A DNA stretch of 64,000 nt, taken from assembly GCF_000523235.1 (NCBI RefSeq), contig NZ_CP006850.1, forward strand, positions 2,666,001-2,730,000, read 5' to 3'. The stretch's first letter is position 1. Each line of letters begins with the position of its first letter. Made by a program: the position numbers and the translations under genes. Under the pieces are notes generated by a model that saw only the letters and a list, made by a program, of their open reading frames with translations, was not told the origin of the DNA and made no database searches. Origin of the DNA: Nocardia nova SH22a. Its GTDB lineage: Bacteria; Actinomycetota; Actinomycetes; Mycobacteriales; Mycobacteriaceae. This document shows, piece after piece, positions 18,204-30,014 of this stretch.

Positions 18204-18259
18204 TGGTGCCGAGTGTGGGACTCGAACCCACACGTCCGTGAGGACAACGGTTTTTGAGA
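18204..18259. repeat. attL: 56-bp copy of the tRNA-Leu 3' part
   Basis: Identical over 56 bp to 29959-30014. It contains, on the minus strand, the tRNA from the anticodon loop through the variable and T arms to the encoded CCA end. The identity stops abruptly on both sides (A against C on the left, T against C on the right). It is an integration footprint, not a functional tRNA gene. Confidence 0.92.
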
Positions 18260-18395: not shown

Positions 18396-18545
18396 ATCGA
18401 TCGAATCGGCGGATAGGGATGCCTGTCTGCCGATTCGTCATGTCTGGACCACGGTTGGCCCTGGTGGTGGTCGGGATGCGTGCATGGGTGGGCTGGCTGC
18501 CGCCTGCCCGATATGGCCTGCCCTTCGCGCGTAGAGGCTCCGGGG

Positions 18546-18595
18546 TCAAGGGTGGACGGAGTCCATCAGCGGAGCTGACGCGGATGCGCCCTTGA
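18546..18595. repeat. Cloverleaf-like element, copy 1
   Basis: A 50-base sequence that pairs completely: outer stem TCAAGGG/CCCTTGA (7 bp), then three arms in a row: TGGAC/GTCCA with loop GGA, TCAGC/GCTGA with loop GGA, and CGC/GCG with loop GGAT. No base is left outside a stem or loop. Copy 2 at 19372-19422 keeps the same fold with a compensatory pair change in arm 1. Confidence 0.7.
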
Positions 18596-18757
18596 GGCTG
18601 GAGGGGCGCGGGATCACAATGCAGGCCGACCACCACCAGGGCCACGTGGCCGAAGGTCACGCACTTCCGCGCGCTCAACGGTTCGATCGGTCGGGAAAGA
18701 GTTCGGCAAAGGGTGACATGAGCAGTCGACCGGGCAGGGCGCCGGGGGGTTTGTGCT

Positions 18758-18807
18758 CGGCTGCGGGAGGCCAGATCGGGGACGGCTGGCGTCGCGCCCA
18801 GCACTGC
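18758..18807. repeat. Direct repeat of about 50 bp, copy 1
   Basis: Closely similar to 19666-19714, both starting CGGCTGCGGGAGG and ending around CCCAGCACT, with a few substitutions and a small gap. It suggests that parts of the left end arose by duplication. Confidence 0.6.
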
Positions 18808-18968
18808 CTCGTCATCGAAAAGTGGTCAGACCGCGGCGAGCACCGTTCTACCCCGTCGCCAGAGCGGCACCCCTCGTCGTGAACGGGCGCGGGATCGGTT
18901 CGGGTCGGGGCTGTCTTCAATAGATAAAAGGCGAATTCGGCAGCAACTCAATCGAAGTGGTGGCGGTC

Positions 18969-19006
18969 GCCCGGTACGGACGGAAAGGACTTCGTCCGTA
19001 CCGGGC
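18969..19006. terminator. Long perfect hairpin downstream of the zinc-ribbon gene
   Basis: A perfect 14-bp stem, GCCCGGTACGGACG with its complement, closes a 10-base loop. It lies 127 bp downstream of the minus-strand zinc-ribbon gene and may terminate it; no T-run follows. It could instead be a replication or transfer structure of the element. Confidence 0.45.
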
Positions 19007-19132
19007 TTCCGATGTCCCCGGATAGCCAGGGTCCGGGGTCTCGCGGCCGGGAGTCGGCATCGTTGGCGACTCGCTGCCCGACGACGGTGGCGGGCGGCCG
19101 GAAGCTGGTGGGGGCCGAAGCCCCCAGGTCGC

Positions 19133-19306
19133 TCAGCCCGCGTACCGCTCGACCCAGTCGAGCATCCGGTAGAACTCGTCGGAGCCGATCGGGTAGTGGT
19201 CCTGGCATTCGGAGCAGAGCTGGTAGTCGGGGGTGAGGTAGGTGGCCTCCTTCTCGCAGATGTCGCAGATGAAGGAGAGCTTTCCGCCGCTTGCGTCGAG
19301 GCTCAT
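19133..19306 (-). CDS. Small zinc-ribbon-like protein (57 aa)
   Basis: The protein has two Cys-x2-Cys knuckles, CDIC (residues 15-18) and CSEC (about 32-35), separated by 13 residues, a spacing that suits a zinc ribbon. A short helical tail, DEFYRMLDWVERYAG, follows. AGGA lies about ten bases before the ATG. Function is unknown; small zinc ribbons often bind nucleic acid or a partner protein. A decayed copy of the same gene lies in inverted orientation at about 19480-19643, which shows that this frame was once used as protein. Confidence 0.6.
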   Translation of the reverse strand: MSLDASGGKLSFICDICEKEATYLTPDYQLCSECQDHYPIGSDEFYRMLDWVERYAG

Positions 19307-19371
19307 GAGGGGTGTCCTTTCCGGTCGTGTTGTTCTGGCTGAGGACGCCTCGATCACGGGCCGGTCGTGGG

Positions 19372-19422
19372 TCAAGGGTGGGCGAATGCCCATCAGCGAA
19401 GCTGACGCGAATGCGCCCTTGA
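19372..19422. repeat. Cloverleaf-like element, copy 2
   Basis: A 51-base sequence that is fully accounted for by an outer 7-bp stem (TCAAGGG/CCCTTGA) and three arms: TGGGC/GCCCA with loop GAAT, TCAGC/GCTGA with loop GAA, and CGC/GCG with loop GAAT. The middle arm contains GCGAAGC, known as an exceptionally stable single-stranded DNA mini-hairpin. Compared with copy 1, one arm-1 base pair is changed on both strands (G-C to A-T). Confidence 0.7.
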
Positions 19423-19479
19423 TCCGCGGCTGGTTCGTGATAGTCCTCGGATAAGCCAGGACAGCGCGACCGGAAAGGA

Positions 19480-19643
19480 CACTGGCGAGCGACACGGGCG
19501 GCGGGAAGATCTCCGACGTGAGATCCGCTGGGACGGGGTCACCGGACTCACCCCCGACTACCAGCTCTGCGGAGGTGACGGCGGCTACCCGATCGGCTCC
19601 GACGAGTTCTCTCGTGGTGACGACCGAGCGGTACGCGGGCTGA
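19480..19643 (+). pseudogene. Decayed inverted copy of the zinc-ribbon gene
   Basis: On the plus strand the frame ending at 19643 reads LTPDYQLC...YPIGSDEF...VRG-stop, matching LTPDYQLC...YPIGSDEF...RYAG-stop of the gene at 19133-19306. The first cysteine pair and the start codon are lost, and the second pair is reduced to a single Cys. Sequence similarity continues upstream to GGAAAGGACAC near the old ribosome binding site. Confidence 0.65.
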
Positions 19644-26224: not shown

Positions 26225-26673
26225 TCGTGACGACGGTGGCCGTGGTGGTCGAGGTGTTCGCCGCGGGGATGGTGTTGTGGCGAGTGTCGAGCCCACGGAC
26301 CTTCGAGCGGTGGATCACCCGGTCACCCCGGGCCGGGTTGCTGGGCTGGTGGCGGTATCGGCGGGTCTGGCGGCGACGCATGACCGCGTGTGGCCTGCAT
26401 ATCGTGCACGGTGACGCGGTGCTGATTCCTCGCCTGCGCGCGGTGCGGATCGGTTCGACTTCCGATCGCGTGACGGTGGGGATGCTCCACGGGCAGAGCC
26501 CGCAGCAATACGAGAACCAGGCCTCCGATATCGCCGAAGCGTTCGGGGTGCCCGCGTGCCGGGCCTCGCTGATCGGACCGTCCACGGTGGAAATCGTTGT
26601 ACACCAAACGGATTCGGATGCCGGTCCGTTGGTGCCGGTTCGTGTCGAGTCTCGTTGGAAGGACGCTGCGTGA
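26221..26673 (+). CDS. One-pass membrane protein related to the N-terminal part of the FtsK-like translocase
   Basis: A 150-aa protein with one N-terminal membrane segment (IVTTVAVVVEVFAAGMVLW) and a soluble domain: GLHIVHGDAVLIPRLRAVRIG, DRVTVGMLHGQSP, ASDIAEAFGVPACRASLIGPSTVEIVV. The same arrangement (GLDV..., a DAFAQYIGVPE-like helix, then a VRLQV-like strand) occurs before the ATPase domain of the translocase at 23845. There is no Walker motif. It may be a stand-alone partner of the translocase or a duplicated N-terminal module. It overlaps both neighbours. Confidence 0.65.
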   Translation: MIVTTVAVVVEVFAAGMVLWRVSSPRTFERWITRSPRAGLLGWWRYRRVWRRRMTACGLHIVHGDAVLIPRLRAVRIGSTSDRVTVGMLHGQSPQQYENQASDIAEAFGVPACRASLIGPSTVEIVVHQTDSDAGPLVPVRVESRWKDAA

Positions 26674-28358
26674 TGACCGAGACCGCCGAAGCTGTCCCGG
26701 ACCGCGAGACAGCCGCTCAGCGCCGGGCACAACCCAACCTGATGGACATCGCCGAGGCTGCGGCGGAGAAGTTCGATGTGTGTCGGCGGCCGATCGCGAT
26801 GCGGGTGGAGGACCCGAAGACCGGTGCTGTGACCTATGAGGGTGCTCCGTGTAAGTCCACGATGGAATCGGTGTGTCCGGCGTGCGCGAAAGCCCATCGC
26901 GCCCTGCGGATCGCGCAATGCCGCGAGGGCTGGCATGTCACGGCCGAACCGGTCGAATACAAGCCCGAACCCACCGAAGCACACACCGCGATCATCGCGG
27001 CCCGTGCCGATCTGGCCGAGCAGTACCGGGCCGCGATCGCTGACGGAGACGAAGACTCCGCGGCCGGAATCCGTGAGGTCGTAGCCGATCTCGACCGCGA
27101 ACTCCGGGATCTCGGGGTGCGTGGACGGCTCCCGAGTCTGGACGAGACCGGCACCGATCGTCGTCGGCGCTCGACTCGTCGGCGGCAGGATGTTCCGGAC
27201 CTGCCGCGCCGGAAGGTCGAAAAACGCACCCTGGGCAAGGAAATCGGCGGCTACCTGTCGTCCATGTTCGTCACCCTCACCATGCCCTCCTACGGGCGCA
27301 TCAACGCCGATGGCGCCACCGACGACAAGGGCCTGCCGTGCTCGGACGGTTCCCCGGTGCGGCCGGACACCTACGACTACCAGGCACAGGCCCGCGATGC
27401 GGTGTTCTTCTCCAAGCTGGTCGATCGCTGGATCCAGAACTTGCGGCGTGCGGTCGGCTGGGACGTGCAGTACTTCGCCACGGTGGAACCGCAGAAGCGG
27501 GGCGCTCCGCACCTGCACATCCTGATCCGGGGCGCGATCTCCCGCGAGCTGATCAAGCAGGTCACCGCGGCGACCTATCATCAGGTGTGGTGGCCTCGCT
27601 TCGATCCGGAGAACCGCGTCTACGGCGGTGACTATCAGCCGGTGTGGGACTACCGGCAGGCCACGTTCGTGGATCCGGCCACACATGAGCCGTTGACGTT
27701 CTGGGATGACGCTCTGGACATCCTCGACACTGTGGACGATCTGGAGCCCGCGCATGTGGTCCGGTTCGGGGCGCAGATGGACCGCAAGCACATCAAGGGC
27801 GTGATCGCGGAGAAGGCCGGTAAGACCATCGGCTACGTCACCAAATACCTGGTGAAGTCCATCGCCGAAATCGTCGAGCCACGTTCGGCCCGCTCAGCCG
27901 ATCACTACGACCGGCTCCACGCCGAGCTGCAGAGTGTGCCGTGTTCGCCGCGGTGTCCGGTGTGGCTGGAATACGGCATCGTTCCCCGCGGCGTCACCGA
28001 GAAGACGATCCCCGGCCGGTGCAAGGGCAAAGCCCACCGTCGTGACACTCTCGGCCTGCCCGGTCGCCGGGTGCTGGTGTCTCGTCGCTGGTCCGGCAAG
28101 ACCCTGCCCGATCATCGTGCCGACCGCGCGGAATTCGTTCGGCAACTTCTCGCACAGGTCGGCATCACCAAACCCGACACCTCGCACCTGAAAGTCACCC
28201 CGGTCGAACCGGGCGACAAATCCCAGCCGCTGCGCGAACACCTGATCATGGGCGCGATCTCCCGCCGAACAGCATGGCGGGCGGAATACCTCAGGGCCCG
28301 AATGGCGGCCGAACCGCCAGGGCCACAACACACTTCGGCAACCCAGGATGCGGCATAG
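26673..28358 (+). CDS. Rolling-circle replication initiator (RepSA-like, HUH family)
   Basis: A 561-aa protein. The HUH metal-binding motif HLH is at residues 280-282 (in GAPHLHILIRG), preceded by the SMFVTLTMPSYG motif at about residues 192-203. The candidate catalytic tyrosine is in GYVTKYLVKS (Tyr388 or Tyr392). Before these, a Cys-rich stretch at residues 30-75 (CRRP...CKSTMESVCPAC) suggests a zinc site. It nicks the element's origin after excision and drives rolling-circle replication. ATG 26673 overlaps the upstream stop; GTG 26670 is also possible. Confidence 0.9.
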   Translation: MTETAEAVPDRETAAQRRAQPNLMDIAEAAAEKFDVCRRPIAMRVEDPKTGAVTYEGAPCKSTMESVCPACAKAHRALRIAQCREGWHVTAEPVEYKPEPTEAHTAIIAARADLAEQYRAAIADGDEDSAAGIREVVADLDRELRDLGVRGRLPSLDETGTDRRRRSTRRRQDVPDLPRRKVEKRTLGKEIGGYLSSMFVTLTMPSYGRINADGATDDKGLPCSDGSPVRPDTYDYQAQARDAVFFSKLVDRWIQNLRRAVGWDVQYFATVEPQKRGAPHLHILIRGAISRELIKQVTAATYHQVWWPRFDPENRVYGGDYQPVWDYRQATFVDPATHEPLTFWDDALDILDTVDDLEPAHVVRFGAQMDRKHIKGVIAEKAGKTIGYVTKYLVKSIAEIVEPRSARSADHYDRLHAELQSVPCSPRCPVWLEYGIVPRGVTEKTIPGRCKGKAHRRDTLGLPGRRVLVSRRWSGKTLPDHRADRAEFVRQLLAQVGITKPDTSHLKVTPVEPGDKSQPLREHLIMGAISRRTAWRAEYLRARMAAEPPGPQHTSATQDAA

Positions 28359-28367
28359 GAGGACGTG

Positions 28368-28583
28368 ATGGACGGCGGAGAGCAGGAGATCTATCTACGT
28401 GCCAAGCAGTGCGAGGAGCTGACGGGGATTCCCGAAGCGACCTGGCGTTGGTGGGCGCATGTCGGTTACGGCCCGGAGAGTTTCAAGATGGGTCCGCGGC
28501 GGCGGGTGTGGAAGAAGTCGAAGGTTCTGGCTTGGATCATCGAGCAGGAACGCACTACGGCCCGGGGTGGTGAGGCTGCCTGA
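28368..28583 (+). CDS. xis: Excisionase (AlpA/MerR-like small helix-turn-helix)
   Basis: A 71-aa winged-helix protein: YLRAKQCEELTGIPEATWRWWAHVGYGPESFKMGPRRRVWKKSKVLAWI. This is the usual DNA-binding fold of AICE excisionases, which bend DNA and direct the integrase to excision. GGAGG lies five bases before the ATG. Its stop overlaps the integrase start, so the two are made together. Confidence 0.85.
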   Translation: MDGGEQEIYLRAKQCEELTGIPEATWRWWAHVGYGPESFKMGPRRRVWKKSKVLAWIIEQERTTARGGEAA

Positions 28584-29956
28584 TGGCTGCGACGCGAAGA
28601 AATCCGCGCTCGGGTGTCGAAGATCGCTGGTACAAGACGGTCACGGCGGTCGACTCGGTTACCGGTGAAAAGTCTCGGCAACGGGCGAAGTCGGCGAACT
28701 ACGGATGCCGGAAGCGGTGGCGTGCTCGGTACGTCGATCCGAACGGCGTGGAGCGGGCAGAGTCGTTCGTGACCAAGGCGGAGGCTCAGAAGTTTCTCGA
28801 TGGCGATGTGACGACCAAGGTCGTGACCGGCACGTGGGTCGATCCGGACCGTAGTGGGGTGCTGTTCGAGGTGGTGGCCGAGAAGTGGTACACCACGAAG
28901 AAACTGCGCAAGCCCAAGACGGTCGGGGGATACCGGTCGCTGCTGGACACCCTGGTGCTTCCTCGCTGGGGCACGGTTCCGTTGCGCGATATCGAGTTCG
29001 AGGACATTCAGGAATGGGTGGTGACGCTCTCGGAGTCGGGCAGTGTCCGGTTCGAGGGGCGTGGCCTGTCGGCGTCTCGGGTCAAACAGTCCTATCAGGT
29101 GCTCGGTCAGGTTCTCCGGTTTGCGGTCAAGGCCAAGCGGCTGGCGGTGAATCCGGCCGAGGATATCGAGCTACCGGCCCTGACCCAGAGCGAGAAGGTC
29201 TACCTCACCCATGTGCAGGTGCTGCGGCTGGGAATGGCTGTTGGTCGATTCCGGGCTCTTGTGCTGATCCTGGCCTACACGGGAATTCGGTTCGGCGAGG
29301 CTACCGCCCTGCGGCCGAGGGATTTCGATCTGGATGCCCGCCGGATTCGGATTGTTCGTTCGGCAACGTTCGTGCGGGGCACCGGGACCGTGGTCAGCGA
29401 CACGAAGAACCACACGAATCGATCGGTGCCGATTCCAGTGGTGCTGGTGATAGAACTCGAACGGCTGCTTGCGGGCCTCGATCCGGATGTGCTGGTGTTC
29501 CCCAGCCACAAGGGCGGCTACCTCGAATCGACCGAGTTCCGTTGGGTGTTCGACCAAGCGGCCGAGGCGGTCGGGCTGAACGGCTTTGTGCCGCACTGGC
29601 TTCGCCACACTGCTGCGTCGCTGGCGATCAAGGCAGGCGCGAACATCAAGGTGATTCAGAAGATGCTGGGCCACAAGACAGCGACGATGACCCTCGATCT
29701 CTACGGCCACCTCTACGACGATGACTTGGACGCTGTAGCCGAAAGAATGGATGCGGGTGCGCGGGCCGTGCTGGCCGAACTCATCGAGACCGGCGAAGCG
29801 CCGGAGTTCTACGCGAACATGTCGCCAGCAGAGTTGGCGCGGTCTGCTCAGGGGTGGAAACAGTGGATCGAGGCGGAGCGCGCGCGGACTACTGCGGACC
29901 AACTGCGGACCGGCTCGCCCGCAGAGGGCTCGCAGCAACGGCAGAAGCCTGCCTGA
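28583..29956 (+). CDS. int: Tyrosine-family site-specific integrase
   Basis: A 457-aa phage-type integrase. The N-terminal arm-binding and core-binding (SAM-like) domains cover residues 1-190. The catalytic domain has Arg236 in YTGIRFGEATAL, HWLRH at residues 338-342, GHK at about 363-365, and nucleophile Tyr374 in DLYGHLY. The gene ends two bases before the tRNA-derived repeat, the usual place of an integrase next to its att site. It would recombine attP with the anticodon-loop region of tRNA-Leu. Confidence 0.95.
   Translation: MAATRRNPRSGVEDRWYKTVTAVDSVTGEKSRQRAKSANYGCRKRWRARYVDPNGVERAESFVTKAEAQKFLDGDVTTKVVTGTWVDPDRSGVLFEVVAEKWYTTKKLRKPKTVGGYRSLLDTLVLPRWGTVPLRDIEFEDIQEWVVTLSESGSVRFEGRGLSASRVKQSYQVLGQVLRFAVKAKRLAVNPAEDIELPALTQSEKVYLTHVQVLRLGMAVGRFRALVLILAYTGIRFGEATALRPRDFDLDARRIRIVRSATFVRGTGTVVSDTKNHTNRSVPIPVVLVIELERLLAGLDPDVLVFPSHKGGYLESTEFRWVFDQAAEAVGLNGFVPHWLRHTAASLAIKAGANIKVIQKMLGHKTATMTLDLYGHLYDDDLDAVAERMDAGARAVLAELIETGEAPEFYANMSPAELARSAQGWKQWIEAERARTTADQLRTGSPAEGSQQRQKPA
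29892..29911 (+). repeat. Candidate integrase arm-type site, right end
   Basis: Identical to 18376-18395 over 20 bp. It lies inside the 3' end of the integrase gene, 47 bp from attR, yet the nucleotide identity is perfect, which suggests selection on DNA rather than protein. Confidence 0.6.
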
Positions 29957-29958
29957 CC

Positions 29959-30014
29959 TGGTGCCGAGTGTGGGACTCGAACCCACACGTCCGTGAGGAC
30001 AACGGTTTTTGAGA
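29959..30014. repeat. attR: 56-bp repeat inside the intact tRNA-Leu
   Basis: Perfect match to 18204-18259. It runs from the encoded CCA end to the anticodon loop, so integration rebuilds a complete tRNA here. Confidence 0.92.

Follow-up and report, generated by a model that had tools for sequence, protein, structure and literature searches.

To our knowledge, the conversion of single-stranded to double-stranded DNA in actinobacterial plasmids and AICEs has been worked out for few cases (sti of pIJ101, and pSN22). As a general rule, the sense strand of rep is the displaced strand in rolling-circle plasmids; ssoA carries the RSB and CS-6 motifs, and the single-stranded promoters Frpo/ssi were reportedly described by Masai and Arai in 1997. 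In PMC11541004, Frpo/ssi of F and related plasmids is presented as a hairpin of single-stranded DNA (ssDNA) which mimics a double-stranded promoter with its -35 and -10, and is associated with early genes, among them ssb and genes for anti-restriction. Two further articles deal with the RNA-polymerase-dependent single-strand origins (sso) of Gram-positive rolling-circle plasmids and sso1 of ICEBs1 (PMC4595007), and with sti, the single-strand origin of pIJ101, a rolling-circle plasmid of Streptomyces (PMC4170104). The terms sso, secondary structure and palindrom are absent from the consulted part of an AICE survey (PMC3218068).

The element analysed here is present in two copies in an AICE, each of which we consider probable (at roughly 0.7) to be a single-strand origin of the ssDNA-promoter type, like Frpo or ssoA in mechanism. 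Its likeness to Frpo/ssi is one of anatomy and proposed mechanism, judged from their description; unlike Frpo, it is actinobacterial, has a three-arm cap, GNA-type loops, a TTGA stem base and GC-rich arms, and also occurs on rolling-circle plasmids and AICEs. With the ssoA type and sso1 of ICEBs1 it would share a folded site on the displaced strand, interchangeability among Rep families and a primer from a hairpin promoter, whereas its fold and sequence look different from those of the ssoA type. With sti it would share the role of a single-strand origin on rolling-circle plasmids of Streptomyces; in pIJ101 itself, the covariance model (filters off) gave no comparable match, the best partial one (15.4 bits) being without the TCAAGGG stem, and the family copies listed as elements score 38.9-72.3 bits.

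The window is the whole 64-kb stretch of DNA analysed (Table 1). The assignment of its element-bearing region to an AICE in the earlier note holds: a perfect repeat at a tRNA-Leu is accompanied by RepSA and FtsK/SpoIIIE (PF01580) domains, and we read the ORF at 28583-29956 from its translation as a putative tyrosine integrase. The RepSA ORF is on the folding strand of both copies (+).

Table 1. Coordinates of the AICE features and of the two element copies in the window.
Feature	Position	Strand	Evidence or remark
att repeat, AICE left end	18204..18259		perfect 56-bp repeat
att repeat, AICE right end, in tRNA-Leu	29959..30014		perfect 56-bp repeat
RepSA rolling-circle initiator ORF of the AICE (predicted start)	26556..28358	+	PF20199, 331 bits
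Copy 1, cloverleaf cap	18546..18595	+	outer 7-bp stem, three mini-hairpins; GNA-type loops on +
Copy 2, cloverleaf cap	19372..19422	+	same fold
Copy 1, entire predicted hairpin with lower stem and bubble	18514..18631	+	minimum-energy DNA fold, 60-nt flanks
Copy 1, -35-like TTGAGG at cap base	18592..18597	+	sequence and family test
Copy 1, -10-like CACAAT, spacer 17	18615..18620	+	sequence; unpaired in predicted fold
Copy 2, -35-like TTGATC	19419..19424	+	sequence
Copy 2, weak -10-like GATAGT (spacer 14) or TAGTCC (spacer 16)	19439..19446	+	sequence
Imperfect inverted repeat centred on copy 2, 72% identity	19110..19666		about 560 bp
Small Cys-rich ORF, 57 aa, start 65 bp left of copy 2	19133..19306	-	

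The fold proposed earlier for both copies, with a 7-bp outer stem and three hairpins with loops of 3-4 nt, was better than all of 200 dinucleotide shuffles in each case (DNA fold of copy 1, -15.4 kcal/mol, z = -4.63; copy 2, -17.7 kcal/mol, z = -5.13). The loops are GGA, GGA and GGAT in copy 1 and GAAT, GAA and GAAT in copy 2, and the compensatory difference claimed for arm 1 is borne out by the sequence (A-T in copy 1, G-C in copy 2). Either DNA strand of both cloverleaves can adopt this fold. In addition to what the earlier note described, each cloverleaf sits at the end of a longer hairpin with imperfect pairing. The pattern TCAAGGG-N30-45-CCCTTGA has three matches in total in the host genome (8.35 Mb, one contig), the third at C1:229128. 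The small Cys-rich ORF beside copy 2 is encoded in the direction in which the predicted folded promoter would read; its Pfam matches are weak, sub-threshold and zinc-ribbon-like only. The right arm of the copy 2 palindrome (19541-19636) contains a degenerate inverted copy of part of this ORF.

The element, a candidate answer to the question of second-strand synthesis, has relatives in 81 of the 296 genomes (31 of the 114 genera) of a class-wide sample, as detected at E <= 1e-4 with a covariance model (R1) that was built from four plasmid copies; the further copies for which the earlier note had proposed such a search thus exist in many genera. Blastn searches with the copy 2 region gave plasmid-borne relatives in Gulosibacter, Mycobacterium and Streptomyces, and further queries extended the list to Micromonospora, Kocuria, Glutamicibacter, Nocardia, Rhodococcus, Pseudonocardia, Curtobacterium and others. 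When one genome of each species was scanned with a pattern, at least 116 stretches were obtained (106 from Actinomycetota and 10 from elsewhere among those listed, by title), and 80 of the 116 listed stretches were scored with the covariance model; the strict patterns match far fewer genomes (4 of 396 in a phylum sample and 3 of 151 in a family sample). Neither an exact 20-mer searched in viral contigs nor blastn of the core against phages gave a match, and a looser pattern found seven stretches in viral contigs, four of which (L150, L151, L153, L154) reach E 1e-3 with the covariance model, their scores being weak or two-stranded. A blastn search of plasmids with an E limit of 10 gave many E. 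coli cysteine-hydrolase matches at E = 2, which were taken as chance. Shorter TCAAGGG...CCCTTGA palindromes with similar letters were seen in alphaproteobacterial MAG contigs of Maricaulis and Marinicaulis (L108, position 7070; L120, position 238) and in the viral contig L150 (position 1852); these are perhaps distant relatives, perhaps chance. No actinobacterial element with such a fold was recognised among the top-ranked matches of a literature search that covered few subscription journals, which is weak evidence of absence.

Three gap-free alignments, corresponding to three size classes (10 of 11, 10 of 10 and 10 of 10 unique cores; L091 was left out) and each with ten distinct cores, were used for the analysis of covariation. 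Paired cells amounted to 99.5, 98.9 and 98.6%, percentages that are conditioned on the selection since a core was admitted to a size class only with arms able to pair (no more than one unpaired position in each arm). Double-sided changes affect 4, 6 and 2 pairs, the number in the third alignment being unremarkable (136 of the 500 shuffles). For each of the three alignments, none of the 500 shuffles attained the covariation score itself, which was at least four times that of the best slid control. The stems covary in all three family alignments. The alignment A1 was not structure-consistent and was left out of the model. A lack of further copies, broken stems and a lack of excess compensatory changes, any of which the earlier note had named as speaking against its proposal, were all looked for, and none was observed. 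Identity merely through the surrounding duplication is ruled out by the relatives in many genera with compensatory changes. Note that the discovery patterns contained TCAAGGG and CCCTTGA, and thus the constant outer stem and TTGA in the discovery sets are partly there by construction.

Three hairpins were predicted in 88 of 109 unique cores. Among the predicted loops, 237 of 296 are GNA triloops or tetraloops of the classes cGNNAg, cGNABg, cCNNGg and gCNNGc, compared with 8 of 296 for the reverse strand, a contrast that is partly conditioned because the candidates had been filtered (141 of 165 kept) for the presence of one or more GNA or TNC triloop hairpins, with GNA not fewer than TNC; before the filter, GNA was present in 142 and TNC in 12 of the 165 candidates. 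Nakano and colleagues (2002) reportedly described the four tetraloop classes as exceptionally stable in DNA, for which our literature search gave no confirmation. Since the GNA loops are on one strand, the folding strand is the GNA strand, which is + in the window. The middle arm of most copies contains GCGNAGC, the reverse complement of GCTXCGC, and the latter is named as a motif of the telomere palindromes of actinobacterial linear replicons (PMC7276702). Unlike those telomeres, the family element is internal and is found on circular plasmids too, and the mini-hairpin common to both may reflect only its stability.

The orientation of the element relative to rep was examined in 40 held-out regions, which we chose from the class-wide model matches. 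A RepSA match (65-611 aligned positions) was on the GNA strand in 14 of the 15 loci having one, the exception being L254, where a RepSA fragment of 50 aa lies on the opposite strand; L254 also has three same-orientation copies of the element within 7 kb (3812, 7794, 10766). In the earlier loci (the window, L038, L065, L167, L168, L175) rep was on the GNA strand in 6 of 6; L151, whose orientation is unclear, and a match of 45 aa in L039 were left out of this count, and both are on the same strand. FtsK matches (13 of 13 held-out loci having one) and integrases (15 of 15) were likewise on the GNA strand; because these genes are usually co-oriented in AICEs, the agreement of rep, tra and int does not represent three independent facts. 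A common order was seen in L241, L246, L249, L250, L261, L270 and L278, with tra (~3.2-3.7 kb) and rep (~1.6-2.2 kb) left of the element and int (~0.8-1.2 kb) right of it, and rep was right of the element in five other held-out loci. Three unrelated Rep families accompany the element, RepSA, Rep_1 (pPA43082) and, weakly, Rep_trans (21.9 bits, below the Pfam cut-off of 29.6), the last on a plasmid of 1,579 bp for which just one gene, CopG-like, is annotated. Two traits of a single-strand origin, namely fixed orientation relative to the rep sense strand and independence of the Rep family, were thereby found; a module kept across Rep families on the expected displaced strand fits such an origin, since a nick site should follow its Rep.

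The genes on the side toward which the predicted promoter would read were less regular. In the larger plasmids of the discovery loci, ArdC (3 of 3) and SSB (2 of 2) were on the predicted side and strand, and in the held-out L269 SSB was on the opposite side. Relaxase genes are right of the element on the same strand in L004, L008, L171, L207 and L277, and MobF is left of it on the opposite strand in L176. By our count, 17 of the 27 annotated plasmid loci have their nearest left gene on the strand that would be read out, and with a crude gene caller the numbers were 40 versus 35 (not significant); a consistent, dedicated promoter for the left gene is not supported in general by these counts. 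Because of this inconsistent direction and of the SSB in L269, second-strand priming was put first and early expression second.

The promoter-like anatomy was analysed in predicted folds of 56 cluster representatives with 60-nt flanks; four of the 60 representatives (L108, L120, L151, L153) were left out of the fold and GATA counts and kept in the -10 test. The arms were mostly paired up to ~18 nt from the cap, open at ~19-30 nt and paired again at ~31-45 nt, and in the held-out loci the bubble was again seen at 19-24 nt from the cap (0.48 unpaired). The stem base ends in TTGA, which is readable on both arms, and the -10 is on the 3' arm alone. With a -10 matrix whose weights and base background were set by hand, the mean score at spacers 15-19 was 2.27 on the 3' arm versus -2.73 for the 5' arm read as its reverse complement, and the 3' arm was higher in 55 of 60 clusters (p = 9e-9; the clusters were built by flank identity and are not fully independent), as it was in 20 of the 24 new clusters of the held-out set (p = 4e-4). 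At spacers 5-9, 10-14, 20-24, 30-34 and 35-39, no significant difference in -10 score between the arms was found in the 60 clusters; at spacers 25-29 the 5' arm scored higher (p = 1e-3), again in 22 of the 24 held-out clusters. The -10 hexamer was unpaired at 0.55 versus 0.20 for the spacer, and since the hexamer was picked within a range overlapping the bubble, it is the bubble itself that constitutes the independent fact. TTGA was present in 20 of the 24 held-out clusters, and the four without it speak against the promoter reading. A hairpin promoter, whose arms are nearly complementary, requires a -10 confined to one of them; here the 3' arm would be the non-template and the 5' arm the template strand. 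A long one-strand hairpin with -35 and -10 on one arm, a trait of ssDNA promoters, was found, although the -35 letters are largely fixed by the patterns. The signature is shown well by copy 1 and poorly by copy 2. A GATA-like motif on the 5' (template) arm, ~30-34 nt from the cap and close to the predicted start, was seen in 13 of 56 clusters (TATC on the 3' arm, 2 of 56) and, more weakly, in 3 of 24 held-out clusters (0 of 24); this motif is suggestive only.

For the AICE copies, the following course of events is proposed. The AICE would excise and replicate by rolling circle, and the rep-sense strand, taken from the general rule as the displaced one, would be released as ssDNA and would fold into the long hairpin, at whose tip three mini-hairpins carry highly stable DNA loops. 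The stem would then offer a double-stranded -35 (TTGA, at the cap base) and a -10 in the bubble, 15-19 nt along the 3' arm, where host RNA polymerase would presumably bind and start with the 5' arm as template, reading leftward off the hairpin. The resulting RNA would prime the complementary strand, and the same RNA may express the left genes before the DNA becomes double-stranded. Against this reading stand two Nocardia contigs with one element per strand and Streptomyces cassettes with inverted pairs. Of the interpretations listed in the earlier note, the single-strand origin is the one favoured by the DNA-type loops confined to one strand, the polarity relative to rep, the strand-specific promoter signature and the occurrence on small rolling-circle plasmids; for a packaging site no support was found.

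The fold might instead be the recognition site of a single-strand origin to which primase or a primosome, and not RNA polymerase, is recruited, the resemblance to -35 and -10 having another cause. The polarity and the family evidence fit such an origin equally well, and it is kept alive because conversion of the single strand without RNA polymerase is reported for pSN22 of Streptomyces in PMC4170104; we regard it as unlikely, however, since an arm-specific -10 at the right spacing, repeated in the held-out set, and a bubble at that place would not be expected. Early gene expression in the recipient after conjugation could also be the main job, with priming secondary, in which case the element would be a leading-region ssDNA promoter. 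The anatomy is the same as that of Frpo, ArdC and SSB in the discovery loci lie in the predicted direction, and several leftward genes form a run on some plasmids, but the left-gene direction is inconsistent, and the element is found on a 1,579-bp plasmid with few genes and on AICEs with an FtsK/SpoIIIE protein. FtsK/SpoIIIE-type AICE transfer is regarded as moving double-stranded DNA. Early expression as the main role is judged to be quite unlikely.

That one strand encodes a structured RNA, an interpretation of the earlier note, or a terminator is disfavoured. Any covarying fold could act as RNA; yet the loops GAAT, GCCA, GTCA and GATA are not GNRA loops of RNA, the conserved loops are on one strand alone, the nearest genes are in all orientations, and a search of the 64-kb window at the Rfam gathering threshold returned tRNA alone, with no match at the elements, so that we hold this very unlikely. 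A double-strand origin, an oriT or a recombination or transposition end is scarcely probable at all: rep or relaxase genes are near in several elements, and the module bounds dispersed cassettes in some Streptomyces, but one and the same module is found with RepSA, Rep_1, Rep_trans, MobA/VirD2-type and MobF proteins, for which different nick sites would be expected. The mobile unit of a transposase acting in trans, also put forward in the earlier note, is unlikely for the AICE copies, though it is echoed by the inverted-pair cassettes of Streptomyces.

In the proposed model, the stems, the loops, the -35, the -10 and the bubble are each open to mutation. The element would also help to recognise, in sequence data, elements that are rolling-circle or ssDNA-transferred, and is a candidate early-expression switch for anti-restriction genes in the actinobacterial phylum.

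The element is also found in dispersed cassettes. In Streptomyces sp. NBC_00249 (G352), with 25 strict-pattern matches, eight pairs were observed in minus-then-plus order, ~1-3.7 kb apart and flanking cargo such as a putative NUDIX-like ORF (cargo gene names are our reading of the translations). Ten two-match loci were among the matches listed, nine of them minus-then-plus and one (L092) with both matches on one strand. The pairs are ~0.73-0.85 kb apart in related genomes, and one relative is without ~1.6 kb at the L025 site, where ~45 bp lie between the flanks. In nearly all of the Streptomyces and Actinomadura pairs observed, each cassette strand has an element near its own 3' end. It is conceivable, although rather unlikely, that these dispersed cassettes have captured, as their end module, an ssDNA promoter/origin that is phylum-wide and independent of Rep, and would be a new class of ssDNA-borne gene cassette; an ssDNA cassette of either polarity could then be transcribed and made double-stranded on arrival. 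Such minus-then-plus pairs occur at dispersed chromosomal sites in Streptomyces and Actinomadura, and the module bounds short cassettes or near-empty inverted pairs at L024, L025, L026, L030 and other G352 sites, at L180-L186, and at L070 and L096. In two Nocardia loci, L196 (8893, 9633) and L197 (8756, 9486), the copies are ~0.74 kb apart in plus-then-minus order, the reverse of the Streptomyces arrangement.
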